Source of the DNA: a virus
DNA: 64,000 nucleotides
Virus record (IMG/VR): IMGVR_UViG_3300027749_000040
Location: 62,001-126,000 of that record
Strand: one strand, 5' to 3'
Below, in pieces: positions 4,230-34,155 of the stretch (position 1 is its first letter; every line of letters starts with the position of its first letter). A program made the position numbers and the translations under genes. The notes beneath the pieces were generated by a model. The model had not been told where the DNA came from and made no database searches. It saw nothing but the letters and a program-made list of their open reading frames with translations.

Positions 4230-5529
4230 AAAGATTGATGAATTATCAAAAACTTTTTGTAGCGTACCGTGGTTACAAATTCATACAGAACCGGATGGTA
4301 AAGTATTTCCCTGTTGTTATTATACCCATGCTAGTAATTACAATTTAGGTAACTGGAACGAACAAAAAATAAAAGACATATTCCATGGTGACAAATGGAA
4401 TAAACTTAGAAAAGATTTCTTAGATGGAAAAAAGCCTAACGCATGTAATAGATGTTGGAAAGAAGAAGATTCAGGAATTGTTAGTATGCGTCAACGATTT
4501 AATGAACGATATTCAAACTTTCCAGACTATACTAATCAGAACGGATATAATAAATTTGATGATATTATAGCTGTAGGGAATGATGACGGCTCCGTAGAAG
4601 ATATAAAATTGGCTACTGTAGATTTGATATTCAATAACCTATGCAATATGAAATGTAGAACATGTGGTCCCGGCTTAAGCACATCCTGGATTCCTGACGA
4701 AATTAAATTGGGTCGTTCAAAAATTAACCCGGTATCATTGTTGACAAACGAAACGGTCACTCATATGAAAGATGATTTAGTTGCATTAGTTGAGATGGTC
4801 GATCCTTATACTGAGATACACTTTAGTGGCGGCGAACCCATGATGCAAGCAGATCATTATCAGTTCTTGCAATTGTTGCTAGACATGGGCAAAACTAAAG
4901 TAAAAATTCGTTATAACACAAACCTTACAGTGTACACGCTTAAAGAGTACAATGCATTTGAAATGCTTAAAAACTTTGATAATGTATTTATGGTTGGAAG
5001 TTGCGATGCTATGGGCAAGCAAGGTGAATATATTCGTAAAGGATTTGATTGGGAAAAAGCTTTAGAATGGTTAAAGACTTGTAAAGAATATTTACCCAAT
5101 GCTGATTATGGAATAAGTGCAGTGTATAGTTTATTAAATGCTTCAGCATCCGTTGACTTTCATAGATATATGTGCGAAAGTACATTATTCAAACGAAGTA
5201 ACGGTACTAACTTTGGATTCTACTTGAACACATTGCACGAACCTATGTGGTTAAAGACAACTCTATTACCGATAGAAGTTAAAGAAGTAGTTACAGAAAA
5301 AATTAGTAAGCATATTGAATGGCTTAGTGAAACACAACCACATGACTTTCATTATGATGTATACATTGACCATTGGAAGAATGCTATTACATTGATGAAT
5401 AGTGCTGACCATAGCGGATTGATACCAAATTTCTACAAAGAAACACATTTATTAGATAGTATACGCAATGAAAAGTTTGAAGAAGTATTTCCTGAATTAC
5501 ATGAAAAAATGAAAATATATGACAAATGA
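4219..5529 (+). CDS. Twitch-domain radical SAM protein, type B variant
   Basis: The start chosen is the ATG at 4219 (MIDKKIDELSKTFC), which overlaps the previous gene by 11 bases; an upstream in-frame TTG at 4204 is less likely. The product of about 436 residues has C14, C32-C33, C76 and C79 in the twitch region, CNMKCRTC (C142, C146, C149) as the SAM-cluster motif and SGGEPMMQ downstream. It is related to the type B genes at 1814 and 5519 but more divergent (EPDGKVFPCC in place of GPDGEVKPCC). The C-terminal half ends like the others with R(N/D).(K/S)F..VFPE. Confidence 0.87.
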   Translation: MIDKKIDELSKTFCSVPWLQIHTEPDGKVFPCCYYTHASNYNLGNWNEQKIKDIFHGDKWNKLRKDFLDGKKPNACNRCWKEEDSGIVSMRQRFNERYSNFPDYTNQNGYNKFDDIIAVGNDDGSVEDIKLATVDLIFNNLCNMKCRTCGPGLSTSWIPDEIKLGRSKINPVSLLTNETVTHMKDDLVALVEMVDPYTEIHFSGGEPMMQADHYQFLQLLLDMGKTKVKIRYNTNLTVYTLKEYNAFEMLKNFDNVFMVGSCDAMGKQGEYIRKGFDWEKALEWLKTCKEYLPNADYGISAVYSLLNASASVDFHRYMCESTLFKRSNGTNFGFYLNTLHEPMWLKTTLLPIEVKEVVTEKISKHIEWLSETQPHDFHYDVYIDHWKNAITLMNSADHSGLIPNFYKETHLLDSIRNEKFEEVFPELHEKMKIYDK

Positions 5530-6847
5530 TTTTAATCCAGTTGAAATGGCAAAGAACAGCAAAACATTTTGTATCTTTCCATGGATACAGCAATATGTAG
5601 GACCGCCGGGTGATGTTAAACCGTGTTGTGTATATGACAATCAAGATGAGATTGGTAGTTTAAAAGAAAACACATTAGCAGAAATTTGGAATAACGATAA
5701 GACAAAACAAATGCGTTTAAACTTCCTTAATGGAATTGAAGAACCAAGTTGTAGTATATGTAACCGTCGTGCAGGATTAGGTCATGCACATAAAAATGAG
5801 TACAATAGAATGTTCTTTGACAATGATGAAGAAATTCAAAAAATTGTAGCAAGCACTAATACAGACGGATCATTGGATGAGCACAAACTATACTACATTG
5901 ATGTTAGATATAATAATCTATGTAATTTAAGTTGTCGTAGTTGTGCTCCGCATTTTAGTACTAGTTGGGTAATGGATCATCGCAAATTGTATAACTTAGC
6001 TGAAAGACGAGATAAAGATGATGGTTATCAATTCCCGGGCAAGACAGAAGTACAAGCATTAGAAGAAATAATTCCTCATCTAGCAACAGCTAAAATGATT
6101 TACTTTGCAGGTGGTGAACCACTGATGCAAAAGGAACACTATGAAGTACTCAACAAATTAATTGAGTTTGGCAACACTGATTTAGAGATTCGCTATAACA
6201 CAAACTTCAGTAACTTTAAATTAAAAAAATACGACAATGTATTAGAGTACTGGAAGAAGTTTTCAAATGTACATGTGTATGCTAGTTTAGATGGTAGCCA
6301 TGAAAAGGGTGAATACTGGCGCAATGGTATAGATTGGAAGCAGGTTATAGAAAATCGTACACAAATGATGGAGGAATGTCCTCACGTGCATTTTATGATA
6401 TCATATACTCTAAGTTGGCCTAATGCTTTTAACTTAGTAGAATTTCATAGAGAATGGGCAGAATTGGGATATCTCAAACCAGAACACATGATGGTTAACC
6501 CATTAGACACCCCTTCGTACTATTGCTTGAAAAATATTCCAGATTGGAAAAAAACAGAGATTGAAAAAGCATTGCAAAAAAATATTGACTGGTTAAAATC
6601 TTTAGACCCGACGTTCGGAATCATAAGTATGTATGAGACAGCAATTAAATTCATGTGGGATAAAAATGGGCAATACTACAATGGCATTGACGAGAGTTTG
6701 AAAGAATTCAATAAAATCTCTACCCGATTAGATGAGATACGTGATCAAAGTTTCTTTGATGTATATCCTGAACATATAAACATCAAAAATTATTTGATCC
6801 ATAATGAATTAAATGTTGAATTTGACTACAGCACATCCAAAAAATAA
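5519..6847 (+). CDS. Twitch-domain radical SAM protein, type B copy 2
   Basis: The 442-residue product carries C18, C36-C37, C78 and C81 in the N-terminal twitch region, CNLSCRSC (C135, C139, C142) and FAGGEPLMQ. It is the nearest paralogue of the gene at 1814 over its full length, including YASLDGSHEKGEYWR and the C-terminal DVYPEH. The start overlaps the preceding gene by 11 bases, and the stop shares one base with the next start. All core catalytic motifs are intact, so this is not a decaying duplicate. Confidence 0.88.
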   Translation: MTNDFNPVEMAKNSKTFCIFPWIQQYVGPPGDVKPCCVYDNQDEIGSLKENTLAEIWNNDKTKQMRLNFLNGIEEPSCSICNRRAGLGHAHKNEYNRMFFDNDEEIQKIVASTNTDGSLDEHKLYYIDVRYNNLCNLSCRSCAPHFSTSWVMDHRKLYNLAERRDKDDGYQFPGKTEVQALEEIIPHLATAKMIYFAGGEPLMQKEHYEVLNKLIEFGNTDLEIRYNTNFSNFKLKKYDNVLEYWKKFSNVHVYASLDGSHEKGEYWRNGIDWKQVIENRTQMMEECPHVHFMISYTLSWPNAFNLVEFHREWAELGYLKPEHMMVNPLDTPSYYCLKNIPDWKKTEIEKALQKNIDWLKSLDPTFGIISMYETAIKFMWDKNGQYYNGIDESLKEFNKISTRLDEIRDQSFFDVYPEHINIKNYLIHNELNVEFDYSTSKK

Positions 6848-8100
6848 TGGAAGAAAAGAAACTATTTAAAATAAGAGATGAGACAAGCGATACGTTTTGT
6901 CTAGCAAAATTTCATGAGGCAAGCATCTGGGTTTACTCGGGTAAGATTGCCAGTTGCCATTATACCCCGTTTATTCAAGTGGGTAATACAGTAGATACAT
7001 TCTATAATCCAGCAGAAAAACGTGAACAACAAAAGAAAATGTTAGCAGGAGAACAACCACCTGCATGTGATAGTTGCTGGCGTTATGAGAATTTAGGATT
7101 GCGTAGTGACAGAACACGCAAGAGTCTAAGTTTTACTGACCATTTAGCCGCAGAAGATTATAAGAATCCTAACTATGTGTTCAAACCCAAAGCATTAGAG
7201 TTAGCATTTCAAAATACTTGTAATTTAGCATGTAGCTATTGTAGCCCGCAATTTAGTACTAGTTGGACCAATGATATTAGAGTAAATGGCGTTTACAAAG
7301 GTATTATTACTGATGATCGCAGACACTATCAAAAGGATATAAACGAACTTAATGAGATGATAGACCCGCCTGATATGACATTGTTCTGGGAATGGTTTGA
7401 GAGTGTTGCTACTGGTTTAGAATCTATTCGTGTTTCCGGTGGTGAACCACTAATGCACGAAGAAGTTTTTCGTGTATTTGAAATGATGACAGAGATAAAC
7501 CCTAACATTGAATGCGTGATACACAGCAACCTCTGCCAAAAGCCAGCAATCATGGATAGATTCTTTGATAAGATTAGTGGATTAACTAATTTACGAATGA
7601 ACATTAGTAATGAATCTGCAGGCGAGACTGCTGAATTTGTGCGTGAAGGTATGATATACACCGAATGGTTGGAGAATATCGAACGACTAGCAAACAGTAC
7701 AGTAAAAGAGTTTAGTGTAAGCACCACTGTAAGTGCAATTGCATTACAATCACTTGACCAAATGTATTTGGACATAATTAATATTCGGAAACACACAAAA
7801 GTAAAACCCTATATCTCTATCAACATGGTTGATAAGCCAGACTTTCAAGGATTTGCTTGTTTAACACGTGAAGAACGTGACTTCTACATTAATAAGTACA
7901 CAAAGTTTTATGATTCAATTAAGGATAAGTTATTACCAGTAGAACATGAACATTGTGCTAGACTGCTTAAGTTTTTAGATGAAGGTTTCATTAAAGAAAC
8001 CCAACCACAATTACGTAAAGACAGTGATATATTCTTTGAACAATATACTCAGCGTAGAAATAAACCAGACAATCTAGCAAAATATATAGGATTAAAATAA
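6847..8100 (+). CDS. Twitch-domain radical SAM protein, type C
   Basis: The 417-residue product has single cysteines in place of the usual CC pair in its twitch region (C18, C37, C74, C77), then CNLACSYC (C125, C129, C132) and RVSGGEPLM. It resembles the gene at 10746 in having a WxYxxxLGxxSDRT-like element after the CxxC pair and a C-terminal tail rich in charged residues. It starts on the last base of the preceding stop codon, so it is probably co-translated with it. The loss of one cysteine of the pair may change the auxiliary cluster ligation; this is inference. Confidence 0.86.
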   Translation: MEEKKLFKIRDETSDTFCLAKFHEASIWVYSGKIASCHYTPFIQVGNTVDTFYNPAEKREQQKKMLAGEQPPACDSCWRYENLGLRSDRTRKSLSFTDHLAAEDYKNPNYVFKPKALELAFQNTCNLACSYCSPQFSTSWTNDIRVNGVYKGIITDDRRHYQKDINELNEMIDPPDMTLFWEWFESVATGLESIRVSGGEPLMHEEVFRVFEMMTEINPNIECVIHSNLCQKPAIMDRFFDKISGLTNLRMNISNESAGETAEFVREGMIYTEWLENIERLANSTVKEFSVSTTVSAIALQSLDQMYLDIINIRKHTKVKPYISINMVDKPDFQGFACLTREERDFYINKYTKFYDSIKDKLLPVEHEHCARLLKFLDEGFIKETQPQLRKDSDIFFEQYTQRRNKPDNLAKYIGLK

Positions 8101-9272
8101 TGGAACGAATGTATGAAGTAGAGAATGTAAAAAGATTGCATATAGAATTGTCTAGTAGATGTAATGCTAGTTGTCCTGCGTGTAGTAGAAACTATTCAGG
8201 CGGTCCTGTTGCGGATAGTTTGGAACTAACTGACTTATCATTGGATGACATTAAGCGTATGGTTCCCAAAGAGATAGCAAAGAATTTAATTGGTATAAAT
8301 TTCTGTGGTAATGTAGGTGATCCTGGTATGGCACCTGACTTAATTCCTATACTAGAATACTTTAGAGAGCAATCACCAAAAATAGTTCAACAACTTAGAA
8401 CCAATGGTGGTATGCGTAATGACAAGTTTTGGACAACATTGGGTGATTTCTTTGTAAAACAACCACCTCCAAGAGACAATCATTTGTTTAGTAAAGCCGG
8501 AGTTGTATTCAGCGTAGACGGGCTAGAAGATACAAACCATATATACCGAAGAGGTGTTATATGGGACAAACTAATTAGAAACATGAGAGCTTATAGTGAC
8601 ACTGGCGCTTTTGCTGTTTGGGAATGGTTATTATTCGAACACAATGAGCATCAAGTTGAAGAAGCAAGAACAATAGCTAAAGAATTGGGATTTGAATTTA
8701 TTGTTAAAAACCCATTAGGTTTTGGTGAGTATGAAGATACATTAAGTGGGATGAATGTGTACGGTAAAGACGGGGACTATGAGTACACTATATGGCCTAG
8801 TAAATATACTGGGCATAGAAAAGAGCCGTTGTTTGGTAAAAAAGTTGATTTTACTTACATGAACAGATTAACTATTCCTATCTTACCTGAGTTTAGTAAA
8901 GAATTAGAAAAGAATTCAGATATAGTTTGTAAGTCTATTGAGCATAAGGAATCTAAAGAAATATACATATCAGCAAATGGATATATGTTACCGTGTTGTT
9001 TTTTAGGTGGAGTGTTTGGTCAGTTTCATAGTTCATATTCACGCTATCAATTTAACAAAATGATTAATGATTATGGATTAGAAGTTTTTAATTTAAAAAA
9101 TCAATCAATATTGGATATTATTCAAGGTCCTGATTTTAGTAAGTTCTTTTTAGATGGATGGAAAGCAGATACAATTGAGAATGGTAAATTGTTATATTGC
9201 TTAGAAACATGCGGGCACAAGTCTGCTATGGACAAATTATATAGTACAAAAATTATAGAGGTGGCTAAATGA
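8100..9272 (+). CDS. Radical SAM protein with C-terminal SPASM-like region
   Basis: Unlike its neighbours, the 390-residue product has its CxxxCxxC motif close to the N-terminus (SRCNASCPAC, C21, C25, C28) and its extra cysteines at the C-terminus (a single C, then LPCCF, then CLETC), which is the classical SPASM arrangement. A weak AGGA lies just upstream of the ATG at 8100. It is sandwiched between twitch-type genes and SGNH-like genes in one tight operon. The SVDGLEDTNHIYRRG segment matches the strand that follows GGEP in related proteins. The canonical GGEP itself is replaced here by a CGNVGDPG element, as seen in some SPASM members. Confidence 0.85.
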   Translation: MERMYEVENVKRLHIELSSRCNASCPACSRNYSGGPVADSLELTDLSLDDIKRMVPKEIAKNLIGINFCGNVGDPGMAPDLIPILEYFREQSPKIVQQLRTNGGMRNDKFWTTLGDFFVKQPPPRDNHLFSKAGVVFSVDGLEDTNHIYRRGVIWDKLIRNMRAYSDTGAFAVWEWLLFEHNEHQVEEARTIAKELGFEFIVKNPLGFGEYEDTLSGMNVYGKDGDYEYTIWPSKYTGHRKEPLFGKKVDFTYMNRLTIPILPEFSKELEKNSDIVCKSIEHKESKEIYISANGYMLPCCFLGGVFGQFHSSYSRYQFNKMINDYGLEVFNLKNQSILDIIQGPDFSKFFLDGWKADTIENGKLLYCLETCGHKSAMDKLYSTKIIEVAK

Positions 9273-10000: not shown

Positions 10001-10749
10001 GTACACTTGATAGAATAATAGTGTTAGGTGATAGTTATACGTTTGGACATGGCTGTTCGGACAGAATATACTATTATGACGAAGACCTTAAAAAATTTGT
10101 AGGAGATATAACTCCTATGCAACAGTGTATTCCTAGCGAATACTGTTGGCCAGCACTATTGCAAAAAGAATTTCCTAATTTAAAAATATTTAATTTATCG
10201 CAACCCGGTCATTGTAATCCGGGAATGTTTAGAGATTTATCAGAATTTTATTTCAAAAATGGTCATAAGTCAAATGATTTGGTTATTTTCAACGGCACAT
10301 TTCCAGATAGGATAGAAGTTAAAACTATGTATACTGACGATGAAATTGGATCATGGTCGATTAAATGGGAGTATATGTCAGGTGGACAAGATTTTAAAGA
10401 ATATATTTCAGCCCAAAAGGAATATACTAAACACTTATATCATGAAAAAATAGGTATTAATCTAACATTAAGTTCTTTGTTTAGTATACATGGTTATACC
10501 ACAGTCAATAGACATAATTTTTTATATAGCATGCCTGATTATTTACTTAAAACATTACAAAGGCACGTAGAACCATTATCAAAGTATAATATACCACCTA
10601 TCCATAATTATGATTTTTCAAGTGAAAACAACTATCAATTCAATATAACATGTCAAGCTAAGGACACACATACCAACGAAAGGGGTCATGAAATTTATTA
10701 TGAAAAAGAAATAAAACCCCGTATAGAAAAATTTATAAGTAAACAATGA
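9997..10749 (+). CDS. SGNH/GDSL-like hydrolase
   Basis: The 250-residue product carries VLGDSYTFGHG near its N-terminus (nucleophile Ser block I), NLSQPGHCN (block II Gly), VIFNGTFPDR (block III Asn-like) and a C-terminal DTHTNERGHEIY stretch containing the expected Asp and His. A GAGG ribosome-binding site precedes the ATG, which overlaps the upstream stop by four bases. It sits between two radical SAM genes and beside another SGNH gene, suggesting action on the same product or surface polymer. No signal peptide is visible, so it probably acts in the cytoplasm or on the virion. Confidence 0.75.
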   Translation: MSTLDRIIVLGDSYTFGHGCSDRIYYYDEDLKKFVGDITPMQQCIPSEYCWPALLQKEFPNLKIFNLSQPGHCNPGMFRDLSEFYFKNGHKSNDLVIFNGTFPDRIEVKTMYTDDEIGSWSIKWEYMSGGQDFKEYISAQKEYTKHLYHEKIGINLTLSSLFSIHGYTTVNRHNFLYSMPDYLLKTLQRHVEPLSKYNIPPIHNYDFSSENNYQFNITCQAKDTHTNERGHEIYYEKEIKPRIEKFISKQ

Positions 10750-12050
10750 AAAAAACATTCCCTATACAAAACGATGCCGCTTGTCTCTACAAATGGGCTT
10801 GGAGTACCTTATTTTTAAGTAGAGGCACTACTTCAAGTTGTCATAGAGGTCGTCATTGGAGATTGACTGAAGATAACTTTATGGATTTTCACAACCATCA
10901 TGGTAAACTCGCTGATAGAGAAAAAATGGCAAGTGGTGAATGGCCTGGTAACGGTTGTGAATATTGCAGAGACATTGAAAAGACCGGTGGCAAAAGTGAT
11001 AGGACCGGATTTGTCAACGAATCAATTGAATTACTACCCCCGGAGTTTGAAGGATATGTACAACGTGCATATGAGTTTGATAGTATTCCATTAAAAGTTA
11101 GCCCCACCTTGCTTGAAGTATACTTCAATAACGTATGTAATCAATCATGTGTATATTGTACCCCCGGTTTTAGTAGTCAGATTGAACAAGAAGTTCGTAA
11201 ATTTGGACCTAGCAAATTTAATGAAGATTACAGCACATGGCGCCCAGACTCTAAGTATGAAATGTATAAGGAGAAGTTTTGGGAATGGATGGAAAAGAAT
11301 AGCGAACACTTGCAAATTTTACAAGTATTAGGCGGAGAACCGTTATATCAAAAAGAATTTGAGCAATGCTTGGATTTCTTTGACAGAAATCCTAGACCAA
11401 ATTTAGTCTACCGCTCGTTCAGTAATCTAAAGCATGAACCTGAAAAGTTCAAAGCAAAAATTCAACGTGTGCAAAACTTAATAGATCAGGGAAAATTAAA
11501 ACGTATGGAATTTGTCTGTAGCATTGATTGCTGGGGGCCGGAAATTGAATATGTGCGTGATGGATTAATATTAACTGAATGGGAACAGAACCTAAATACA
11601 TTATTACATTCCCCGGGCGTAGGCGTATTGATTCACGCCACTCTTACTGCATTGACATTGCCCACCTTACATCAGTTAATAGAGAAAACAAATGAATGGC
11701 GCACGATTAAATCTACGGTTGGTATTAATTGGAACACTGTGGTTAGACCCTCAACATTCAATCCATATAACTTTGGTAAATATATAGCACCTTTTATTGA
11801 TGCATCGATTCAAGCGTTAGAAAATTATAGTGATCCCATCGAAAAAGAAAAACTACAAACTCATTTAATGGGAATACAACAACAACTATTGACTACCCCT
11901 GCAAACAAGAAAGAAGTTAATGATTTTGCTAACTTCTTAACTGACATAGACAAACGTAGAAATAGAGACTGGCAAGCAATATTTCCTCAGATTGTAGATA
12001 TAATAAATACTATCAACAAAGAGGAGCCGGATCATGTTCAAGTGGATTAA
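10746..12050 (+). CDS. Twitch-domain radical SAM protein, type C variant
   Basis: The 434-residue product has an N-terminal cysteine block (C13, C32, C71, C74), CNQSCVYC (C131, C135, C138) and LGGEPLYQ. Its C-terminal half is the closest match to the truncated gene at the window's left edge, so the cluster is bracketed by two members of one subtype. It begins four bases before the upstream SGNH gene's stop. Its 3' end overlaps a 34-codon ORF that has its own ribosome-binding site. The substrate is not known. Confidence 0.87.
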   Translation: MKKTFPIQNDAACLYKWAWSTLFLSRGTTSSCHRGRHWRLTEDNFMDFHNHHGKLADREKMASGEWPGNGCEYCRDIEKTGGKSDRTGFVNESIELLPPEFEGYVQRAYEFDSIPLKVSPTLLEVYFNNVCNQSCVYCTPGFSSQIEQEVRKFGPSKFNEDYSTWRPDSKYEMYKEKFWEWMEKNSEHLQILQVLGGEPLYQKEFEQCLDFFDRNPRPNLVYRSFSNLKHEPEKFKAKIQRVQNLIDQGKLKRMEFVCSIDCWGPEIEYVRDGLILTEWEQNLNTLLHSPGVGVLIHATLTALTLPTLHQLIEKTNEWRTIKSTVGINWNTVVRPSTFNPYNFGKYIAPFIDASIQALENYSDPIEKEKLQTHLMGIQQQLLTTPANKKEVNDFANFLTDIDKRRNRDWQAIFPQIVDIINTINKEEPDHVQVD

Positions 12051-12138: not shown

Positions 12139-12959
12139 TACAATTTGTTAATTTATTAGATTCTGAATCGTTAGATGATGTAACTGGATATACTAAAACA
12201 GAACATTTGACTTGGACTGATGAACCGTACAGAATTGATTTTGCATCACGTGGGGAAATAGAACATGCTAGTTCATGGCAAGGTCCTCACTTTGATTACT
12301 ATTTTAATAAATTAGGATTCCGATCCTCAAATGATATACCTAGCAGTATAGATATAGGCGCATTTGGTTGTAGCTTTACAGCTGGATTAGGATTACCCGA
12401 GAATTATCTTTGGCATAACTTACTAGCCAATGAATTAGAGTTGACATCTTTAAATTTTGGCGTGTCTGGGGCATCATGCACATCTATTAGAGATTTATTT
12501 TTAATTACATCTAACCATATACAAATGAAACATGCTGTATTTTTGTTACCTAGCTATAATAGAATGCAAATTGGAATAAAGCACATGCAAAAAGATATGT
12601 TGACTAATTTATCTTTAATACCTGGTTTAAAAAGTGAACTATCATATAGTTATGGGGTAGATGTTGAAATGTTATTCAAACATATACCCGATGATGAACA
12701 AATAAAAACCTTTAAAAATGACATATACTTAATAGACTATGTTGCAAAACACAGAGATATTAAAGTATATTTTTCATCTTGGGACGGTGACACATATAAT
12801 TTGCTTAAGCAATTAAACTTAAAGAATAGTACGGTGGTGCCGTTATGGAGTTCACAGAGTAAAGAACAGGCAGACTCAGATTTAGCTAGAGACAAAAAAC
12901 ATCCCGGCCCCATACATCATAAACAATGGGCTGATGTTGTTAGGGAATTTATTAAATGA
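12135..12959 (+). CDS. SGNH/GDSL-like hydrolase
   Basis: The 274-residue product contains IGAFGCSFTAGLGL around residue 75, a GCSFT form of the nucleophile block common in phage SGNH proteins, then FGVSGASC (block II) and a C-terminal KKHPGPIHHKQW with a plausible catalytic His. The roughly 70 residues before the GCSF motif have no recognised domain. It overlaps the small gene upstream and the carbamoyltransferase downstream by four bases each, so it is in the same operon. A role in removing or transferring acyl groups on the same glycan as the neighbouring carbamoyltransferase is a guess. Confidence 0.72.
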   Translation: MIQFVNLLDSESLDDVTGYTKTEHLTWTDEPYRIDFASRGEIEHASSWQGPHFDYYFNKLGFRSSNDIPSSIDIGAFGCSFTAGLGLPENYLWHNLLANELELTSLNFGVSGASCTSIRDLFLITSNHIQMKHAVFLLPSYNRMQIGIKHMQKDMLTNLSLIPGLKSELSYSYGVDVEMLFKHIPDDEQIKTFKNDIYLIDYVAKHRDIKVYFSSWDGDTYNLLKQLNLKNSTVVPLWSSQSKEQADSDLARDKKHPGPIHHKQWADVVREFIK

Positions 12960-14452
12960 ACTATATAGGTATATCCTCAGGATTTCACGATGCCGCACTA
13001 AGTGTTATAGATGACAAAGGTAATATATTGTTTGCCGGCCACAGTGAACGTTATAACAAAGACAAACACACAAAGCACTTGTGTTATGATATAGTTGAAG
13101 ATGCACTATCATATACAACCTCACGTGATATCAAGATTCATTACTATGAACGCCCTTGGATGAAGTTTCTGCGACAAGTTAGATCAGGTGAAAAACCTGT
13201 ATTATCTAATTTGTTTGTTAAAGAGATTATAGGTCGTGGATTACTTCATAAGTTACAAGATGGTCGTGGTGATAAGGTTCATACACATAATCATCACCTA
13301 AGTCATGCAGCCGCAGGATTTCAAACAAGTCCCTATGATGATGCTACTGTAGTTGTTATTGACGCTATTGGTGAGTTTGACACAATCAGTATTTATAATG
13401 CATGGTATGACAAAAATGGTGTAGCAAAATATAAGAAGTTATGGGGACAATATTATCCTAATAGCATTGGTTTGTTTTATAGTGCAATGACACAACGAGT
13501 GGGTTTAAAACCACTAGACGAAGAATACATTCTTATGGGTATGGCAGCATATGGTAAATCAAAACCAGTAGATAAGATGTCTACTCAGTTAATAAAATCA
13601 TACAGAGACATTACATTCAGGGATAACTTGCACACGGGTGTATCTGATAACTTTTTAGAGGGTGCAGATAACATGGATATTGCTTGTAGCGCACAATTAA
13701 TTGTTGAACAATTAATTACTAATGTTATCAGCAAAGCAAAAATGTTAGGCGGTAGCAAGAATTTTGTATATAGTGGCGGAGTCGCACTAAATTGTTTAGC
13801 AAATAGATTGTTAGGAAACTTTTACGACAACATTTGGATTATGCCTAATCCCGGCGATGCTGGTTCTAGTCTTGGAGCAGCCTGCCTTGGCTATGGCAAA
13901 CATGTTAATTGGACTAATGCTTTTCTTGGTCATAATATTAGCGGTAATTATCCTACCAATCGTATTCTTGACTCTCTACTTACTGATAAAATTACAGGAG
14001 TCGCTAGTGGTAGAGCAGAGTTTGGGCCCAGAGCACTTGGACATAGAAGCTTGCTTGCAGATCCACGAGGTAATGACATAAAGGATAAAGTAAATGAAAT
14101 TAAACGTAGACAAAAATTCAGACCCTTCGCCCCGATTATTCTGGAGGAACATGCTGATACTTACTTTGATATGCCTCATGGTTTCAGTAATAGTAGGTAT
14201 ATGCAAGTCATCAGTCGTTGTAGGGTACCTGACTTATTTCCTGCTATCGTTCATCACGACGGTACTAGTCGTGTACAGACAGTCCCAAAAGATGGAAGTG
14301 GAATTAGAGAACTACTTGAAAAATGGTACATACTAACAGGATGCCCTATGTTGTTGAATACATCATTGAATGTTCGCGGAGAACCAATGGTAAATGACCG
14401 AAAAGATGCGGATCGCTTTGAATTAATGTATAATGTAAAAGTTATATCATAA
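12956..14452 (+). CDS. NodU/CmcH-type carbamoyltransferase
   Basis: The 498-residue product is recognisable from YIGISSGFHDAALSV at the N-terminus, HNHHLSHAAAGF near residue 110 (metal and carbamoyl-phosphate site of the Kae1-like domain), GGVALNCLANR, NPGDAGSSLGAA, and the C-terminal GRAEFGPRALGHRSLLADP signature of the carbamoyltransferase C domain. Family members use carbamoyl phosphate and ATP to carbamoylate sugars, antibiotics or nucleotides. It is shorter than the usual 550-600 residues. It is translationally coupled to the SGNH gene. It probably modifies a sugar or the product of the neighbouring radical SAM enzymes; the acceptor cannot be predicted. Confidence 0.92.
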   Translation: MNYIGISSGFHDAALSVIDDKGNILFAGHSERYNKDKHTKHLCYDIVEDALSYTTSRDIKIHYYERPWMKFLRQVRSGEKPVLSNLFVKEIIGRGLLHKLQDGRGDKVHTHNHHLSHAAAGFQTSPYDDATVVVIDAIGEFDTISIYNAWYDKNGVAKYKKLWGQYYPNSIGLFYSAMTQRVGLKPLDEEYILMGMAAYGKSKPVDKMSTQLIKSYRDITFRDNLHTGVSDNFLEGADNMDIACSAQLIVEQLITNVISKAKMLGGSKNFVYSGGVALNCLANRLLGNFYDNIWIMPNPGDAGSSLGAACLGYGKHVNWTNAFLGHNISGNYPTNRILDSLLTDKITGVASGRAEFGPRALGHRSLLADPRGNDIKDKVNEIKRRQKFRPFAPIILEEHADTYFDMPHGFSNSRYMQVISRCRVPDLFPAIVHHDGTSRVQTVPKDGSGIRELLEKWYILTGCPMLLNTSLNVRGEPMVNDRKDADRFELMYNVKVIS

Positions 14453-17400: not shown

Positions 17401-19160
17401 AAGATAAAGTAGTTGAAGTTCGTACTAAGATTGACATGTTCTTCATTGACAAGGGCAATAGTGAGTCGCTAGCTAGATTCCAACAACTACGTGAAAGATT
17501 CCCCAACATAACTAAGACAAGATATCTAAACAGTTGGGTAGAAACAATTAATCGTTGTATAACTAAGTCTGAAACAAATTTATGCTGGATATTGAATAGC
17601 GAACTAGATTATACTGACTTTGAATTTGATTACTATCCTAGCCCGTGGCAGATGCGTATGGTACATGTGTTTGGAACTCAATGGAGTCACTGGGGCACAA
17701 CATTCATGGTCAATAAGACTACGTTCCCTGAAGATACAAAGTATGTCAAAATTATTGAGCACTTATCCACATTAAACTTTGTTAAACGTAAGACAGCAAA
17801 AGCAACCAATTGCTTATATGATATTGTAATGATTGACCATGGCAATAAAGAAACACAATATATTCGCAAAATTGTCAAAGACAGAACTGGTAGAGATTCT
17901 GAAATTGTTAAGTACAATAGAAGCTATTTACAAACATTTAAGTCAATGTTGAAAGACATTCAACCTAAGAAAGAACACTATCTTTGGGTATGTTCTAGTA
18001 TCTGTGACTATGAAAACTTTGACTTTAGTTATATATGTGATCCATATGCTAAAGATCAACTGCATGTTTTCCCTAGTGACAAACAAAAGTTTGGAGATAC
18101 ATTCTTAATCGATGTAAGCAAGTTCAAGTTATTAATTGATGATATGATTATGATAGAAGACTATGAGAAGGTTAATTATAATCAACATCAAAGAGTAAAG
18201 CGTTTACCAGCACCCGTTATTATTACAAAAGAAGATACACATGTCACTAATATTCATACTGATTTTGATTGGCCTTACGCTACGTTTGTCACGCAAGACA
18301 ACAAAGAATTAAATGTACATGATAATGAACCTATAAGCTTATGGACACTTGACACCAAGAACATACTGATTACTAGTACAGGTGGAACACGAATTATTGT
18401 CCCTAAAGAAGCAAAAGATTATGTAGAGAATGAACTGTATGATTACCCATACATCAGTCGTAGCAAATCTCTAGCGCAATCCCAGCCATTGGATATAGTC
18501 TTCCTAAGCAACGGAGAAACTGGAGCTGACGAGAACTACGAACACTTACTGAAAGTGACTAAGGGATTACGTAATAGAGTTGTTCGTGTTGATGGCGTGA
18601 ATGGTCGTGTAGCGGCATATCACGCAGCCGCACTAGCAAGCAACACACCTTGGATGTTTACTGTGTTTGCTAAATTAAAAGTCAATAATAAATTTGATTG
18701 GAGTTGGCAACCTGACAGATTGCAAGTTCCTAAGCATTATATCTTTACTGCATCTAACCCAGTAAACAAACTAGAGTATGGTCACCAAGCTATGATTGCC
18801 TACAACAAGCGTATCACACTTGCTAACAATGGTACTGGTCTTGACTTTACGCTTGACAATGAACATGAAGTTATTGAAGTGAATAGCGGTGTTGCTGTGT
18901 ATAATACAGATGCATGGAGTACATGGCGTACTGCATTTAGAGAAGCAATCAAATTAGTTGCCGCAACTGATGATATGTCTAAACAAAGACTTGATGCATG
19001 GTTAAATATTGGTGAAGGAGACTTTGCTCAATATAGTTGCAATGGTGCAAAAGATGCAGTAGAATACTACAATCAAGTCAATGGCGACTTAGACAAATTG
19101 CGTTTAAGTTATGATTGGTTATGGCTAAAAGAATATTATAATAAAAAATACAAATTATGA
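14463..19160 (+). CDS. Giant repeat protein with glycosyltransferase-A-like C-terminal region
   Basis: This is the longest gene in the window, 1,565 residues. Twelve modules of 64-68 residues follow one another, with the Phe of the FD(F/Y)SW motif at residues 122, 188, 256, 323, 389, 454, 522, 587, 651, 717, 783 and 848. Each reads approximately FDFSWHPDP-x-PPYIYQFG-x-QW, then GGPKY.V.GAT..KY. More degenerate copies follow near 934 and beyond. The C-terminal part (DIVFLSNGETGADENYE, VDGVNGRVAAYHAAAL, NPVNKLEYGHQAM) resembles GT-A glycosyltransferases of phages, but the usual VVDGDA metal motif is replaced by TVFAKL. It may be a glycan-binding adhesin or an enzyme. No signal peptide is present. 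Confidence 0.8.
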   Translation: MLRDVFYFGEKPNVHPREKFATDLVDAKRQCTTEHFWIINEHCNYKDFDWDWEFDFLPDEDVWAEEHNNVWPSPYQKDSGTCLCSTNLDAVTIYRADVDPIPLKDEITNNWKIIEYIDESKFDFKWHPDPNDPPYIYVWGNKWYPGTIMPTVEYHVPGATDRKYILDNLAPLLPMPMLFNIIYEPADFDYSWRPDPTAPPYIYVFGNNQHPASVMPTVEFHVEGATERKFIENIIPKLAARPADFETLENIDPTTFDMTWVPDPTAPPYIYAWGNQWNKPEDKISVIRRVEGATEYKYMEARVKRNPCMDNWNIPNNMFQNKFDFSWEPNPHDPPFIYQFGTQWQKTGGPKYVVEGATEIKYIDVLKAEVVCTQFENWQVPRNIDQTKFDFSWHPDDTEEPFIYQFPDQWTRTGGPRYVVPSATEIKYIDVQIAIAKQDKTHWSIPENIDTTDFDFSWHPDIDHAPLIYQFGTQWQRTGGPKFYAVGCTEDSDIQYVDTLKAKAIVDMSNWCVPNNLDIDTFDFSWHPDATEDPFIYQFGTEYSKVGGPKYTVNGATDIKYVADIIAKLQQNYDNWIIPDYIDKGSFDFSWVPDVEDKPYIYQFGTQWQKTGGPKYVVEGASEIKYVNVIKAKKLQHENTAWKTLINISDFDFSWHPDDSDEPYIYVFGNQWNDATLESTVEYHVEGATQRKYVTDLIAQAAPYKEDWVNVEDVESFDYSWRPNPTDPAYIYVFGNTQYPNTIMPTVKLVKRGATQEKFIDDMVATLAQKPELFINTKLIKDFDYSWRPNPKDPPYVYQFGTQWAKTHGPQFTVEGATESKFVNEPVSTILPDMTYWEIPENVDVTKFDFSWHPDATSPPYIYQFGTILDEKDGPRYIVPGNTGVVVNIERTEIVLEELEFPKYTIKTTLEDLIEDHTGEIFWALNPDLDYSEFDFKWVPDKQNVYHVNAFGSKDNMNSQTYFVNGKMWQKGYRDINYIEDKVVEVRTKIDMFFIDKGNSESLARFQQLRERFPNITKTRYLNSWVETINRCITKSETNLCWILNSELDYTDFEFDYYPSPWQMRMVHVFGTQWSHWGTTFMVNKTTFPEDTKYVKIIEHLSTLNFVKRKTAKATNCLYDIVMIDHGNKETQYIRKIVKDRTGRDSEIVKYNRSYLQTFKSMLKDIQPKKEHYLWVCSSICDYENFDFSYICDPYAKDQLHVFPSDKQKFGDTFLIDVSKFKLLIDDMIMIEDYEKVNYNQHQRVKRLPAPVIITKEDTHVTNIHTDFDWPYATFVTQDNKELNVHDNEPISLWTLDTKNILITSTGGTRIIVPKEAKDYVENELYDYPYISRSKSLAQSQPLDIVFLSNGETGADENYEHLLKVTKGLRNRVVRVDGVNGRVAAYHAAALASNTPWMFTVFAKLKVNNKFDWSWQPDRLQVPKHYIFTASNPVNKLEYGHQAMIAYNKRITLANNGTGLDFTLDNEHEVIEVNSGVAVYNTDAWSTWRTAFREAIKLVAATDDMSKQRLDAWLNIGEGDFAQYSCNGAKDAVEYYNQVNGDLDKLRLSYDWLWLKEYYNKKYKL
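14790..17120 (+). repeat. Tandem ~198-bp coding repeats (12 modules)
   Basis: The DNA encodes twelve consecutive modules of about 192-204 bases inside the giant gene. Protein similarity is strong (FDFSW, PPYIYQFG, GGPKY, EGATE.KY) while codons differ between copies, so the array is old or under selection and not a recent expansion. Two subtypes are visible: one with YVFGN and MPTVE.HV.GAT (modules 1, 2, 9, 10), the other with YQFGTQW and GGPKYVV (modules 4-8, 11 and 12); module 3 is intermediate. Confidence 0.85.
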
Positions 19161-20140
19161 AATATCTAATCGTAGAGATGTATATTTCCAAACATTTTGA
19201 AATGTGTGATGAGTTTATACATAAATTAAAAACAGAAGAATATGATGTTTGTATTTTTTATGCACCATCTGAATGGGAATATTGGTTTGTTCATGATTTT
19301 AAAAACTTATGGAATACCATGACAGAAATAATCTATAGTAGAAACAAAAAAATAGAAGTAATTACTGGGGCGGCCAGAGTATTATACGGGGAACCTAAAC
19401 TAGATTATGTCACGGTTCATCCATGGGATACTTATTGGATAACATTAACACATCATAGCCTACAAAATTATGTAAGAGAAACAAAGCTATACACTTACAA
19501 ATACATTTATATGAATAACAATGACCATGCATGGCGTTGTAAACTTATAGATTTGGTAGCTAAGAATAATTTGATTAAGCATGGTGCAGTCTCATGGCAT
19601 AAATTGCGTTATAATTATCCATGGAAATATTTTAAACCTGAAATATTAAAATTAACGGATTCGTTCTCCGGAGATTTTTTTGATATTTTTACACTCCCTG
19701 AAGAATATGATAATTCTTTTATGCAATTGATTAGTGAAACTACTGTCAATGCTCTTTTTATTACGGAAAAAACAGCTATACCACTACTAACATCTAAACC
19801 ATTTTTAGTAGCATCTGTTACTGGTTATCATGCACATTTAAAAAAATTAGGATTTGAGTTATATACTGAAATTTTTGATTATTCATTTGATGATGAAATT
19901 GACGAAGATATAAGATATCAAAAATTACTTAGTAATTTAATTAAAATATGTAATTATTCAAAAGATCAACTAACATCAGCTCACCATCTGATTAAAGAAA
20001 AACTGTTGTTTAATCAAAACAGAGCAATAGAAATTGCAACCAAAAATATTAATAAACCTAGTATTTTAAATAATTTTCCCGAAAAGTTTTGGCATTCCGA
20101 TTCAATGATATATAATAAATATATGTTTATGACTGTATGA
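19157..20140 (+). CDS. Glycosyltransferase-like protein of unknown specificity
   Basis: The 327-residue product is translationally coupled to the giant repeat gene (ATGA overlap). It has no clear GT signature at the N-terminus, but the C-terminal third carries FITEKTAIPLLTSKPFLVAS followed by LKKLGFELYTEIFDYSFDDE. The same pattern (TEK..KP......PF.(V/L)(V/G)....L..LG(F/Y)..(F/Y)...(F/W)D.S(Y/F)DD) appears in the - strand gene at 49764, so the two are related. This pattern recurs in phage glycan-modification loci, which is general knowledge. Its last bases overlap the predicted start of the tmRNA acceptor piece. Confidence 0.55.
   Translation: MKYLIVEMYISKHFEMCDEFIHKLKTEEYDVCIFYAPSEWEYWFVHDFKNLWNTMTEIIYSRNKKIEVITGAARVLYGEPKLDYVTVHPWDTYWITLTHHSLQNYVRETKLYTYKYIYMNNNDHAWRCKLIDLVAKNNLIKHGAVSWHKLRYNYPWKYFKPEILKLTDSFSGDFFDIFTLPEEYDNSFMQLISETTVNALFITEKTAIPLLTSKPFLVASVTGYHAHLKKLGFELYTEIFDYSFDDEIDEDIRYQKLLSNLIKICNYSKDQLTSAHHLIKEKLLFNQNRAIEIATKNINKPSILNNFPEKFWHSDSMIYNKYMFMTV
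20089..20116 (+). promoter_or_regulatory. Candidate sigma70 promoter for the tmRNA gene
   Basis: TTGGCA (five of six matches to -35) is followed after 16 bases by a perfect TATAAT, inside the end of the upstream CDS. The predicted start, near 20123, falls just upstream of the tmRNA acceptor piece. Confidence 0.5.
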
Positions 20141-20192
20141 AGTAGACAGAAAAGGATTCAAGACGCGGGGGCAGTGCCCGCCAGGTCCACCA
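20131..20192 (+). ncRNA. ssrA: tmRNA acceptor piece (3' tRNA-like domain) of a permuted two-piece tmRNA
   Basis: The 3' end is CAGGTCC followed by the discriminator A and an encoded CCA (20182-20192). A 5-bp T stem (20165-20169 with 20177-20181) closes a 7-base loop, GGCAGTG, which departs from the usual TTCRANY. CAGGTCC pairs with GGGCCTG at 20533-20539 in the downstream coding piece, giving a 7-bp acceptor stem whose third pair is G-U, the alanine identity element. Further pairing (20157-20164 with 20563-20570, one mismatch; 20131-20136 with 20575-20580) forms the long P2-like helix. The 5' boundary is set by that pairing and is approximate. Confidence 0.9.
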
Positions 20193-20204
20193 TAAGGAAG
20201 TTTA

Positions 20205-20519
20205 ATGAAGATAAGTGAGTTAACATCAGGATACTTGGGACAGATTGCTAAGTTAAATTGGCAACCGGTCAACAAGAGTGTATGGAATTCTATTCAAGAT
20301 GAAGGTCTTGACGAAGAACAAGACACACCCAATCCTGCCGACTGGCTCATGGCGTCATTAAATATTACACCAGATGATGCTCAAGCATTGATGGCATATG
20401 AAGATGATGCAATTGAAGAATTTAATCGTTTTGATATTGCATTGAAGCAACGCTATCCTGGCATGGTAGATTTAATTGATTACGACAACGGTACTGTTAC
20501 TATTGTCAAAGTCAAGTAA
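20205..20519 (+). CDS. Hypothetical protein encoded inside the tmRNA intervening segment
   Basis: The 104-residue acidic product begins MKISELTSGYLGQ and has no family I recognise. An AAGGAAG ribosome-binding site (20195-20201) sits immediately after the CCA of the tmRNA acceptor piece. The stop codon lies 13 bases before the coding piece. It is thus wholly contained in the 340-base segment (20193-20532) that must be removed to mature a two-piece tmRNA. Either the precursor doubles as its mRNA or a separate transcript exists. Codon use and the ribosome-binding site resemble those of the other genes, so it is likely translated. Confidence 0.75.
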   Translation: MKISELTSGYLGQIAKLNWQPVNKSVWNSIQDEGLDEEQDTPNPADWLMASLNITPDDAQALMAYEDDAIEEFNRFDIALKQRYPGMVDLIDYDNGTVTIVKVK

Positions 20520-20532
20520 GTTTTCTTATGAT

Positions 20533-20700
20533 GGGCCTGACACAGGATCGATTGGGTCACAAGTATTGAAATGGACAGTCCGGCAATGTAGAAGCCGTTA
20601 GGATTGGGGTCTCCCGGTCGCAGACACAAAAAACGTAAATGCAAACGACGAACTTTTTGCCTTAGCGGCCTAAACACCGCTTAGGGGAACTATCCCTCGT
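20533..20700 (+). ncRNA. ssrA: tmRNA coding piece with tag ANDELFALAA
   Basis: The piece starts with GGGCCTG, the 5' strand of the acceptor stem, then a tmRNA-like D region (ACACAGGATCGATTGGG). A resume codon GCA at 20641 opens a 10-codon tag, ANDELFALAA, ended by TAA at 20671-20673. This matches the ANDE..ALAA type of bacterial tmRNA tags, which direct tagged proteins to ClpXP and related proteases. The tag's end lies in a 9-bp P5-like hairpin with one mismatch (20660-20668 with 20677-20685). CGGC/GCCG around 20582-20598 could form PK1. The 3' boundary is uncertain, before the terminator at 20714. Confidence 0.92.
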
Positions 20701-20713
20701 AACAGAAAATAGT

Positions 20714-20738
20714 AATAGGCTCCTAGGAGCCTATTTTT
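20714..20738. terminator. Rho-independent terminator, probably bidirectional
   Basis: A perfect 22-base palindrome (20714-20735, core GGCTCCTAGGAGCC) is followed by TTT. It ends the tmRNA transcript on + and abuts the stop of the lipoprotein gene on -, so it can serve both. Confidence 0.85.
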
Positions 20739-21162
20739 ATGGTGTACATGGACCTGTAACAAATCCACCAGCATCTGGTCTACAAGTTGTAGGCAACGGT
20801 GTGCAAGGGCCAACAATAAACCCGTCCCTACAGTAGTTGATTACAGGTTGTGTTATAACGCTGGGTCCAATTACTACGGGGGGAGTCACAATGACTGTTG
20901 GGCCTACTACTGGTCCTGTTACAAATGTCACAGTGGGTGGTGTAGGCCCAACAACTACTGGGCTGGGAACAGTGCCACTGGGTCCAACTACAAACTGCGG
21001 GGCAGTGGGTGCTGGGCCAGGGCCAACCACAAACGGTGGAGGGATGTCAGCAAGTGACTGTGCTGATAATTTTACTATTTGTGGTTGTGGTGTATCTGTT
21101 GCAGTGCCTACACCGCAGGCAGTTAATGCTGTTACTAATAACAGTGATGCAATTTTTCTCAT
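20737..21162 (-). CDS. Secreted lipoprotein with Gly-Pro-Val repeats
   Basis: The start is the ATG at 21162, which follows AAGGAAAT; a longer in-frame extension to 21213 lacks this support. The 141-residue product begins MRKIASLLLVTALTAC, a signal peptide ending in a lipobox (LTAC) with Cys16 as the lipidation site. The mature part is dominated by VVGP, VVVGP, IVGP and VTGP repeats and ends with three cysteines in CTPLPTTC and GPCTP contexts. It is one of only three - strand genes. It is probably anchored to the outer membrane of the infected cell; the role is unknown (superinfection exclusion or lysis are guesses). Confidence 0.75.
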   Translation of the reverse strand: MRKIASLLLVTALTACGVGTATDTPQPQIVKLSAQSLADIPPPFVVGPGPAPTAPQFVVGPSGTVPSPVVVGPTPPTVTFVTGPVVGPTVIVTPPVVIGPSVITQPVINYCRDGFIVGPCTPLPTTCRPDAGGFVTGPCTP

Positions 21163-31672: not shown

Positions 31673-31970
31673 CGAATTCACTAGACCCAAGTATCAGGTA
31701 CAACTATCTGATACTGGGGAAGAGATGGTAACCATTACTCAAGTAGTTCACACTATTAAGATGGGTGATGTTGAAGATCCTGATTTGTTTGTTGCTCAAC
31801 CAATTTACGAATGGCAACAAACAGAAGCCGGTAAGTGGATAATGGAAAATTCTATACCTGCTCCTAGTTGGCATCGTAATCATGACATATACAATTATGG
31901 ATATACTTATCAGATTAGAGCATATCTAACACATAAACAATTAACATTTTGGAAGTTAAAATATGAGTAA
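31641..31970 (+). CDS. Conserved phage hypothetical protein, 109 residues
   Basis: The product starts within thyA in another frame and ends in an eight-base overlap with the epimerase. The C-terminal half (PAPSWHRNHDIYNYGYTYQIRA, ending LTFWKLKYE) is rich in aromatic residues and looks like a small beta domain. I recall similar sequences in marine T4-like phages as hypotheticals, unverified. An ATG further in is possible as the start, given the long overlap. Confidence 0.65.
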   Translation: MALSKQQWQSNEFTRPKYQVQLSDTGEEMVTITQVVHTIKMGDVEDPDLFVAQPIYEWQQTEAGKWIMENSIPAPSWHRNHDIYNYGYTYQIRAYLTHKQLTFWKLKYE

Positions 31971-32937
31971 TATATTGGTTACTGGCGGACTAGGACTTAT
32001 TGGTCACAATGTAGTTAAACGACTACAAGATATGGGACATTTAGTATCTATAATGGATAACAAAACAAACTATGGAATTATTCCCCAAGATGAAATTGAT
32101 TACTTGATGGCCGAGCGAATGAAGAAGATTGATGAAACTAGTTTTATCTATGACAGAGACATTTGTGATGCAGAGGCAGTTAACTTTATCTTTAATGTAG
32201 AGCAACCAGAGATTGTTATACATATGGCTAGCTTCCCAAGACAAAAAGTAGTTAACGCAAATCCTGCTTGGGGAAGTCGTGTTATGAGTGAAGGGTTGCT
32301 CAACTTGCTGGAAGCTAGTAATAAGTATGATGTACGTAAGTTTATCTATATCAGCAGTTCAATGGTGTATGGTGACTTCACTGATGATGTAACAGAAGAT
32401 TATGATTGCAAACCTCAAGGTCAGTATGGTATATTGAAACTGGCAGGTGAAGATTTAGTCAAAGACTACACACGCAGAACTAATCTTGTCCATACAATTA
32501 TTCGTCCAAGTGCGGTCTATGGTGAACTAGATGTTGAGGATCGTGTTATTGCTAAGTTTATGCTTACTGCCATGCGGGGTGGCACATTGAATGTTAATGG
32601 TGCAAATGAAACATTAGACTTTACTTATGTTGAAGATGCCGCAGATGGCATTGTAGGTGCCGCATTAAGCGACAATACAGAGAACAAAACATATAACATC
32701 ACCAAAAGCCATAGTCGAACCTTACTTGATGCGGCTAACTTGGCAGTCAAATGTGCAGGCAAAGGCTCAATCAATGTAAGAGATAAAGATGCAGACTTCC
32801 CCAGTCGTGGTGCATTAAACATTGATGCGGCACGTAGTGACTTTAGATATGATCCTAAAGTAGACGTAGAAGAAGGCTTTCAAAAATATTATGATTGGCT
32901 TAGTACATCAAGGTACTGGCAGGATAAAATAAAATGA
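31963..32937 (+). CDS. NAD-dependent sugar-nucleotide epimerase/dehydratase
   Basis: The 324-residue product is an extended short-chain dehydrogenase: the NAD-binding motif is TGGLGLIG at the N-terminus, the catalytic Ser region is YISSSMVYGD and the YxxxK motif is YGILK. RPSAVYGEL follows in the substrate domain. Relatives interconvert UDP- or GDP-sugars. It is followed by a DegT-type aminotransferase, a common pairing for making amino-sugars. The exact substrate cannot be assigned. Confidence 0.92.
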   Translation: MSNILVTGGLGLIGHNVVKRLQDMGHLVSIMDNKTNYGIIPQDEIDYLMAERMKKIDETSFIYDRDICDAEAVNFIFNVEQPEIVIHMASFPRQKVVNANPAWGSRVMSEGLLNLLEASNKYDVRKFIYISSSMVYGDFTDDVTEDYDCKPQGQYGILKLAGEDLVKDYTRRTNLVHTIIRPSAVYGELDVEDRVIAKFMLTAMRGGTLNVNGANETLDFTYVEDAADGIVGAALSDNTENKTYNITKSHSRTLLDAANLAVKCAGKGSINVRDKDADFPSRGALNIDAARSDFRYDPKVDVEEGFQKYYDWLSTSRYWQDKIK

Positions 32938-33143
32938 ATGAACTAGAAACTGCATTGAAAGCACATGATTGGTCTCTAGATGGATATAAATCTAGACTTA
33001 ACATAGACAAGTTGATGAAAGAAAATACCGAACAATCAAAATTGTTATGGGAACAATACTGTCCGTGGTCTGTTACTAACGGCGGGTATATAGCTTGGGC
33101 AAAAAATGCAAATCTCCCACTTCGGTCTAGCAAGACAGTATAA
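32934..33143 (+). CDS. Hypothetical protein, 69 residues
   Basis: The small product lies between the epimerase (ATGA overlap) and the aminotransferase (38-base overlap). It is not recognised. A helix-rich N-terminus is followed by a Trp-rich segment (WEQYCPWSVTNGGYIAW). It may be an acyl carrier-like or accessory subunit, but no phosphopantetheine Ser motif is seen. Confidence 0.55.
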   Translation: MNELETALKAHDWSLDGYKSRLNIDKLMKENTEQSKLLWEQYCPWSVTNGGYIAWAKNANLPLRSSKTV

Positions 33144-34155
33144 GAACATTGGTCCAGAGTTGCTTGATGCAACTCACCGAGCCCTTAAAGATGGACAGCT
33201 TGTAGGTGGACATTATACACGCTCGTTTGAAGAATGGCTAAAGCATCGTACTAAAACAAAGTATGCTGTTACTGTTCATAGTGGCACACAAGCATTAGAG
33301 ATTATCGCAAGATATAAAAAGAAAAAGCATAACGAAACAATGGAAGGCAATCCTAAAGTTGGTATACCTAATTTAACTTATCCAGCAACATTGAACTCAT
33401 TCTTAACTGCAGGCTGGGATATAGAGTTAGTTGATACTGATAAAAATGGAATCATTGAAAAATACATAGTAGGATACACGTGTGTCATGGGTTATGCAGG
33501 TCGTAAGCCTTGGCCTATTGCAGGGTATACTAGCGCAAATGCAGTGATTGTAGACGGAGCACAACATTGGTTAGTATGTGACGGAGATGTTGGTAGTGGT
33601 ATGTCTATTAGTTTTGATCCTACAAAAAACTTACCTAGTTCAGGTAATGGTGGTGCAATTGTAACAAATGACGAACAACTATATCTGTTTGCCGCAACAT
33701 ACAGAGACAACAACAAACCTGCATTCCATGATGCAGGAACTAACAGCAAGATGAGTGAACAAGATTGTGCTCAGATTCTTGTTAGAGCAAAGTATATTGA
33801 TGGATGGCAAAAGCGTAGAAGTGAGATTTCCAAGTATTGGTGTAATGCGTTCAGAGAACTACCATTAACTTGTCTGTCTGACACAACAACTCCTCATGCA
33901 CATCAAAAGTTTGTGTTATATTTACCTGATCGTAATAGCTTACATACTCATTTATTGACTGATGGTATTGATAGTAAGATTCATTATGAGTATGTACTAG
34001 GTGACTTACCTACAGCAAAGAATTTACCAAAGCCTGACTTGTTATCTACTAGCGTAATGCTAAGTCGCGGTGTGTTAAGTTTACCAATCTATCCTGAATT
34101 AACTGATGTAGAAGTTGATTATATAGCTGAGAAGGTTCATGAGTTCTATAAATAA
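33106..34155 (+). CDS. DegT/DnrJ/EryC1-family PLP aminotransferase
   Basis: The 349-residue product has the family hallmarks: a GG-HYTRSFEEWL start, VHSGTQALEI (PLP-phosphate binding), VDGAQHW (Asp holding the pyridine N), and SFDPTKNLPSSGNGGAIV with the Schiff-base lysine in DPTKNL. Family members aminate keto-sugars attached to nucleotides. It follows an epimerase/dehydratase and precedes a radical SAM gene, so an unusual amino-sugar is the likely product. It is shorter than typical members (370-400 residues). Confidence 0.9.
   Translation: MQISHFGLARQYKNIGPELLDATHRALKDGQLVGGHYTRSFEEWLKHRTKTKYAVTVHSGTQALEIIARYKKKKHNETMEGNPKVGIPNLTYPATLNSFLTAGWDIELVDTDKNGIIEKYIVGYTCVMGYAGRKPWPIAGYTSANAVIVDGAQHWLVCDGDVGSGMSISFDPTKNLPSSGNGGAIVTNDEQLYLFAATYRDNNKPAFHDAGTNSKMSEQDCAQILVRAKYIDGWQKRRSEISKYWCNAFRELPLTCLSDTTTPHAHQKFVLYLPDRNSLHTHLLTDGIDSKIHYEYVLGDLPTAKNLPKPDLLSTSVMLSRGVLSLPIYPELTDVEVDYIAEKVHEFYK

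Follow-up and report, generated by a model that had tools for sequence, protein, structure and literature searches.

A conserved protein gene in the intervening sequence of a circularly permuted phage tmRNA

As judged from its sequence, the gene for a circularly permuted (two-piece) tmRNA carried by a phage encloses a second gene, which fills the intervening sequence (IVS) between the two tmRNA pieces and encodes a conserved protein of 104 amino acids that is under purifying selection. The locus lies in a window of 64,000 nucleotides (positions 62,001 to 126,000) of the 174,470-base IMG/VR virus record IMGVR_UViG_3300027749_000040, in which genes for a large terminase, a UvsX-like recombinase and a helicase fit a tailed, T4-like phage. 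It is probable that one bifunctional precursor gives rise both to an active two-piece tmRNA and to a small mRNA for the 104-aa protein. Phage-borne two-piece tmRNAs as such are ordinary and already known; the protein genes in the tmRNA spacer are the new element and seem to be undescribed.

The complete permuted tmRNA occupies positions 20131-20716 (+) of the window, with an approximate 3' end (Table 1). A search with Rfam at the gathering threshold places RF04321 (tmRNA_permuted) at 20131-20673 with 99.8 bits (E 3e-18); the match spans the full length of the model, with the acceptor piece 5' of the coding piece in the gene. RF01849 (alpha_tmRNA) matches at 20085-20716 with 55.0 bits against a gathering cut-off of 50, and membership in this family is marginal because much of the 3' part of the model is deleted in the alignment. 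The acceptor stem of 7 bp (GGGCCUG/CAGGUCC), which includes G3-U70, can be read directly from the sequence, and the tag frame is intact, with a hydrophobic degron end followed by a stop codon. No intron family from Rfam was found at the locus and the T-loop is intact, so the RNA is not an intron-form tmRNA. Every RNA feature that can be tested on the sequence is present, and on these grounds the window RNA belongs with the permuted tmRNAs. A preliminary description of this DNA had already proposed the permuted order, the acceptor piece at 20131-20192 with its CCA, the coding piece from 20533, the 7-bp stem with G3-U70 and the full tag, all of which are borne out by the sequence and Rfam; the promoter and terminator that it assigned to the gene are present as consensus matches. 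An upstream ORF of 327 aa (19157-20140, +) has its stop (20138-20140) inside the acceptor piece, and the tmRNA promoter lies within the 3' end of this ORF. Just beyond the tmRNA terminator is a convergent small ORF (20740-21162, -) in which a lipoprotein-like signal and repeated VVGP-type motifs can be seen by eye, and for which no Pfam or PHROG match was found.

Table 1. Features of the tmRNA locus (window coordinates)
Feature	Position	Strand	Evidence or remark
Sigma-70-like promoter, TTGGCA-16-TATAAT	20089-20116	+	11/12 consensus bases; consensus match only
Acceptor (3') piece, with P2 strands	20131-20192	+	RF04321, RF01849; covariation in 85 sequences
P2 helix joining the pieces	20155-20161 with 20552-20558	+	98.2% of cells paired
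T arm	20165-20181	+	Within acceptor piece
Acceptor strand	20182-20188	+	Within acceptor piece
Encoded CCA	20190-20192	+	Within acceptor piece
IVS, 340 nt	20193-20532	+	Between CCA and G1; predicted to be excised from mature tmRNA
IVS leader with Shine-Dalgarno	20193-20204, paired to trailer 20517-20528	+	12-bp duplex
Nested gene, 104 aa, MKISELTSGYLGQIAKLNW...	20205-20519	+	93% protein identity in L002-L004; pN/pS 0.13
Coding (5') piece	20533-20716	+	Rfam ends 20673 (RF04321) and 20716 (RF01849); 3' end approximate
Coding-piece acceptor strand	20533-20539	+	
Coding-piece P2 strands	20552-20558, 20575-20580	+	
Tag frame ANDELFALAA and stop	20641-20673	+	Sequence; RF04321 alignment
Intrinsic terminator, AATAGGCTCCTAGGAGCCTATTTTTA	about 20714-20739	+	Consensus match only

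The pairing between the two pieces was counted after joining the acceptor and coding pieces of 85 distinct phage sequences. In every one of these, both the acceptor stem and the T stem are paired. The helix 20155-20161/20552-20558 has 98.2% of its cells paired and switches among G-C, U-A, C-G and A-U, while the helix 20131-20136/20575-20580 has 94.6% of its cells paired and shows compensatory changes. Of the two joining helices proposed in the preliminary description, the latter is confirmed; the other, an internal helix at 20157-20164/20563-20570, was rejected with merely 55.9% of its cells paired, and the true one is 20155-20161/20552-20558. The fold of the precursor 20131-20600 beats 100 of 100 shuffles (z -4.3). 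The two computational checks put forward in the same description differed in outcome, as the Rfam covariance search placed both RF04321 and RF01849 above the gathering threshold whereas ARAGORN made no tmRNA call on the window locus, a failure that we attribute to the non-canonical T-loop GGCAGUG. What the description overlooked is the protein gene filling the spacer between the tmRNA pieces.

The failure of ARAGORN and a score of 99.8 bits, which is below that of the compact examples from isolate phages (104-124 bits), are both consistent with a degenerating relic, a tmRNA split by gene insertion and now inactive. However, compensatory changes preserve every helix, the tag frame is unbroken, the insert in the IVS falls outside the mature RNA and the enclosed-gene layout recurs in many lineages, all of which makes a relic very unlikely. 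The window is also not alone in escaping ARAGORN. Among 213 viral loci, a pattern script recovered 193 complete permuted tmRNAs (133 distinct) against 76 tmRNA calls by ARAGORN, so published counts based on this program are probably low. Phage tmRNAs are thus under-counted, the one in the window and many related ones being overlooked by ARAGORN.

The initial view that such an RNA is unusual on a phage does not hold. A paper of 2022 described a two-piece ssrA in Melnitz, a marine myophage (Methylophilales), and counted 53 two-piece tmRNAs among public phage genomes (PMC9004378). The exact 28-nt T-arm/acceptor sequence of the window recurs in at least 119 IMG/VR contigs, some of them longer than 300 kb, and is absent from 84,980 bacterial and archaeal species genomes. 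A related pattern with a canonical T-loop was found in 17 genomes, and no host can be named because all 17 have a one-piece tmRNA by ARAGORN. Searches of 50,697 phage records with the DNA and proteins of the locus found no similarity, and coding-piece queries against phages gave no match. Permuted tmRNAs scoring 104-124 bits are present, unannotated in the records, in XacN1 (Xanthomonas), SM1 (Pseudomonas), BUCT628 (Acinetobacter), QDWS595 (Alcaligenes) and PHB04 (Bordetella). In XacN1 (L231 13-171), two tRNAs with a CUA anticodon are encoded some 1 kb upstream of the permuted tmRNA, which may point to recoding of UAG in this jumbo phage. Unusually long phage tmRNA tags of 26-33 aa occur in L138, L129, L143 and other contigs (for example, ATADTFDFSAMSFTGNSVSGKSKVALAA).

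An IVS is found at the same position in 133 distinct phage tmRNAs. In the window, the Shine-Dalgarno of the nested ORF is contained in UAAGGAAG, which follows directly after the CCA (AAGGA at 20195-20199), and the stop codon lies 13 nt upstream of G1. Three IMG/VR contigs carry the same ORF in the same place with 93% protein identity, flanked by tmRNA halves that have diverged, as seen in the tags ANDSQFALAA and ANDSVYALAA and, in one of the three, in the T-loop UUCGACU instead of GGCAGUG. The ORF shows 45 synonymous and 23 nonsynonymous differences (pairwise sums over three distinct sequences), and the resulting pN/pS of 0.13 indicates a gene under purifying selection. The 104-aa protein belongs to no Pfam or PHROG family and has no relatives beyond the three IMG/VR contigs. 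AlphaFold modelling of the protein was weak, with a mean pLDDT of 69.7 for the best model and below 40 for the other four, and gave no PDB match.

Protein genes in this position are not peculiar to one lineage. An unselected sample of 54 IVS clusters was drawn from among the matches listed for the T-arm/acceptor pattern of the window and represents one T-loop class. All 15 of its clusters with an IVS of at least 120 nt are spanned over at least 80% by an ORF starting no more than 20 nt from the CCA, while dinucleotide shuffles with fixed ends predict 0.51 of 15. Together with a second sample, chosen for a Shine-Dalgarno and ATG after the CCA, these yield about 37 mutually unrelated ORF families in the IVS slot (simple 3-mer linkage). 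Strong Pfam matches are limited to two families, thioredoxin (4e-21) and DUF2061 (3.5e-20); other IVS ORFs are zinc-ribbon-like, and many encode hydrophobic (membrane) peptides of 20-27 aa. Ten families have pN/pS values of 0.13-0.42; four pairs or small sets gave 0.67-2.0 at little or very high divergence and are uninformative, and one set has no differences. With one member taken per family, 21 of 37 families have a stop codon that ends exactly 1 nt short of G1 and 10 have it at least 7 nt before G1, while in the remaining 6 the reading frame continues into the coding piece.

Many phage tmRNAs have a compact IVS that contains no ORF. The IVS measures 26-114 nt in DSS3P8, RcXuper, DSS3_MAL1, Cp1R7A-A1, XacN1, SM1, BUCT628, PHB04 and QDWS595, and no IVS ORF starting from a leader Shine-Dalgarno was recognised in these nine isolates. 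Sinorhizobium phage Phosso (L241, PV764938) carries an unannotated permuted tmRNA candidate, to which ARAGORN is blind, with an IVS of 410 nt whose longest ORF has 57 codons and does not start in the leader. A different arrangement is seen on the reverse strand of L077, where two acceptor pieces (ends at 2200 and 4136, about 1.9 kb apart) precede one recognised coding piece. The first acceptor piece, with a GGCAGUG T-loop, is followed by several ORFs, and the second, with UUCGACU, by a 144-nt IVS containing an ORF; this may be a duplicated or expanded spacer.

Comparison with known systems helps to delimit what is particular to the window. The tmRNAs of RF04321 and RF01849 share with it the order of the pieces, the tRNA-like domain, the P2 pairing, G3-U70 and the tag frame, and the T-loop of the alphaproteobacterial model (RF01849) is similar to that of the window. 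Six alphaproteobacterial replicons were examined and five IVS measured; four are 22-34 nt long and one (Acetobacter) 121 nt, unlike the 340 nt of the window with its conserved protein gene. The open frame in the Acetobacter IVS begins with TTG, lacks a recognisable Shine-Dalgarno and was judged to be due to chance. In GCA-2688965, a single case, a tRNA-Ala gene lies in the IVS of a permuted tmRNA (PMC11915505); both systems nest a gene in the IVS, but that of GCA-2688965 is a tRNA and that of the window codes for protein. In intron-form tmRNAs, a homing endonuclease gene is found in a group I intron (PMC11915505), and here too a protein gene lies inside an RNA segment that is removed from the tmRNA. 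Unlike the intron form, the window has no group I intron, its pieces would not be ligated and IVS ORFs are not recognisable endonucleases. No mention of a protein gene in a tmRNA IVS was found in the tmRNA literature consulted, which includes PMC9004378, PMC11915505 and PMC3985003.

This layout recurs in a cultured phage. The Melnitz IVS of 142 nt contains GGAG and an ATG at +19, from which a frame (MFKWLSKTRLVVITRDYF...) extends for 41 codons exactly to G1 and then for 13 codons into the coding piece. The Melnitz record annotates the tmRNA alone at this locus, and an IVS gene is mentioned neither there nor in the Melnitz paper (PMC9004378). Among 17 IMG/VR relatives, gathered by a pattern chosen for this start, 13 have the run-on frame, with an in-frame length difference of 24 nt in one class; three have a stop 10 nt upstream of G1, and one is truncated. 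In the largest length class, the Melnitz-type frame has a pN/pS of 0.30, and the other two frames have values of 0.95 and 0.68. Melnitz ssrA thus resembles the window as a phage-borne permuted tmRNA with an open, selected frame in the IVS, and differs from it in the ORF family and in having no stop before G1.

The ends of the IVS are joined by a helix of leader and trailer that adjoins the acceptor stem. The mean energy of this helix is -7.7 kcal/mol over 66 distinct pairs, as compared with -5.06 (sd 0.20) for re-dealt trailers, and none of 200 re-dealings was as low, indicating that leader and trailer covary. In compact IVS the closing helix is stronger (-11.15 versus -5.27 re-dealt). The Shine-Dalgarno is paired with the trailer with a median probability of 1.0 across 75 folded precursors and of 0.98 in the window, where the UAA stop codon is also part of the closing helix. 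Since compact IVS without ORFs share this helix, the Shine-Dalgarno may be sequestered incidentally, by a helix that processing requires. The IVS might be just a permissive site in a compact phage genome, with genes that rely on the common transcript for their expression but are functionally independent of the tmRNA; small genes could settle there harmlessly because the IVS is discarded from the mature RNA. The mutually unrelated ORF families, which range from thioredoxin to membrane peptides of 20-27 aa, the many compact IVS with no ORF, and the presence of the closing helix in both IVS classes are in keeping with such a site. In contrast, the stop codons that end just 1 nt short of G1 in 21 of the 37 families and the start and stop signals embedded in the closing helix suggest adaptation to the tmRNA frame, although reuse of a fixed helix could also explain them. 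We consider the chances that the IVS is solely a permissive site to be about even.

For the bifunctional precursor favored here, transcription from the gene's own promoter to its own terminator would produce a single RNA, the folding of which would put the acceptor stem beside the helix joining the IVS ends. A processing route involving RNase P and tRNase Z has been proposed for two-piece tmRNAs (PMC3985003). By analogy, host RNase P would cut at G1 (20533) and a tRNA 3' nuclease after the CCA (20192), removing the 340-nt IVS and leaving a two-piece tmRNA. With host SmpB, AlaRS and ribosomes, this tmRNA would rescue stalled ribosomes during infection and add the tag ANDELFALAA. A search of this virus record and of 20 related ones found no SmpB, so the host would have to provide this partner. 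Either before or after excision, the IVS would act as a small mRNA for the 104-aa protein. Because the Shine-Dalgarno and the stop codon lie in the strands of the closing helix, translation probably competes with folding or processing of the precursor.

The tmRNA could also do more than add rescue capacity, as a phage tag that differs from that of the host might mark stalled products otherwise or allow host tagging to be outcompeted. Such a takeover would fit with the wide variation of tags among phages (including those of 26-33 aa) and with the permuted tmRNAs on isolates infecting Pseudomonas, Xanthomonas and Acinetobacter, hosts which carry a one-piece tmRNA. The window tag, however, ends in an ordinary ALAA degron, and host takeover is considered unlikely. 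It is likewise quite improbable that nested gene and tmRNA regulate one another in a self-reporting loop. In such a loop, the cut at G1 would end the IVS mRNA 1 nt past the stop (21 of 37 families) or leave it stopless, and most run-on families (the zinc-ribbon family and Melnitz included) would be cut exactly at a codon boundary. Maturation would make the IVS mRNA a substrate of the very tmRNA from which it had been excised, and the small protein would accumulate only during a shortage of tmRNA maturation or of rescue capacity. In the window, where the stop lies 13 nt before G1, a weaker effect would be expected.

Elsewhere in the window, 609-9272 and 10746-12050 (+) hold an array of at least eight radical SAM genes that follow one another directly or almost so, which is very unusual in a phage; four have a SPASM domain, and three of the eight fall below the Pfam radical SAM cut-off. 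A Nol-like carbamoyltransferase gene (12956-14452) lies beside the array. Nucleotide-sugar epimerase-like and aminotransferase-like genes and a further radical SAM gene at 31963-34155 and 38960-40081 (+) suggest a phage-encoded modification or surface-sugar pathway.

The spacer of phage tmRNAs, so far treated as waste, is a recurrent slot for protein genes in aquatic phages (about 37 families, one sample). These IVS genes would be lost wherever annotation masks genes that lie within RNA genes, as apparently happened in Melnitz. The locus would offer a natural case of one transcript choosing between a structural RNA and an mRNA and, as Melnitz is in culture, the processing and translation of such a transcript and any cross-talk with ribosome rescue are directly testable.
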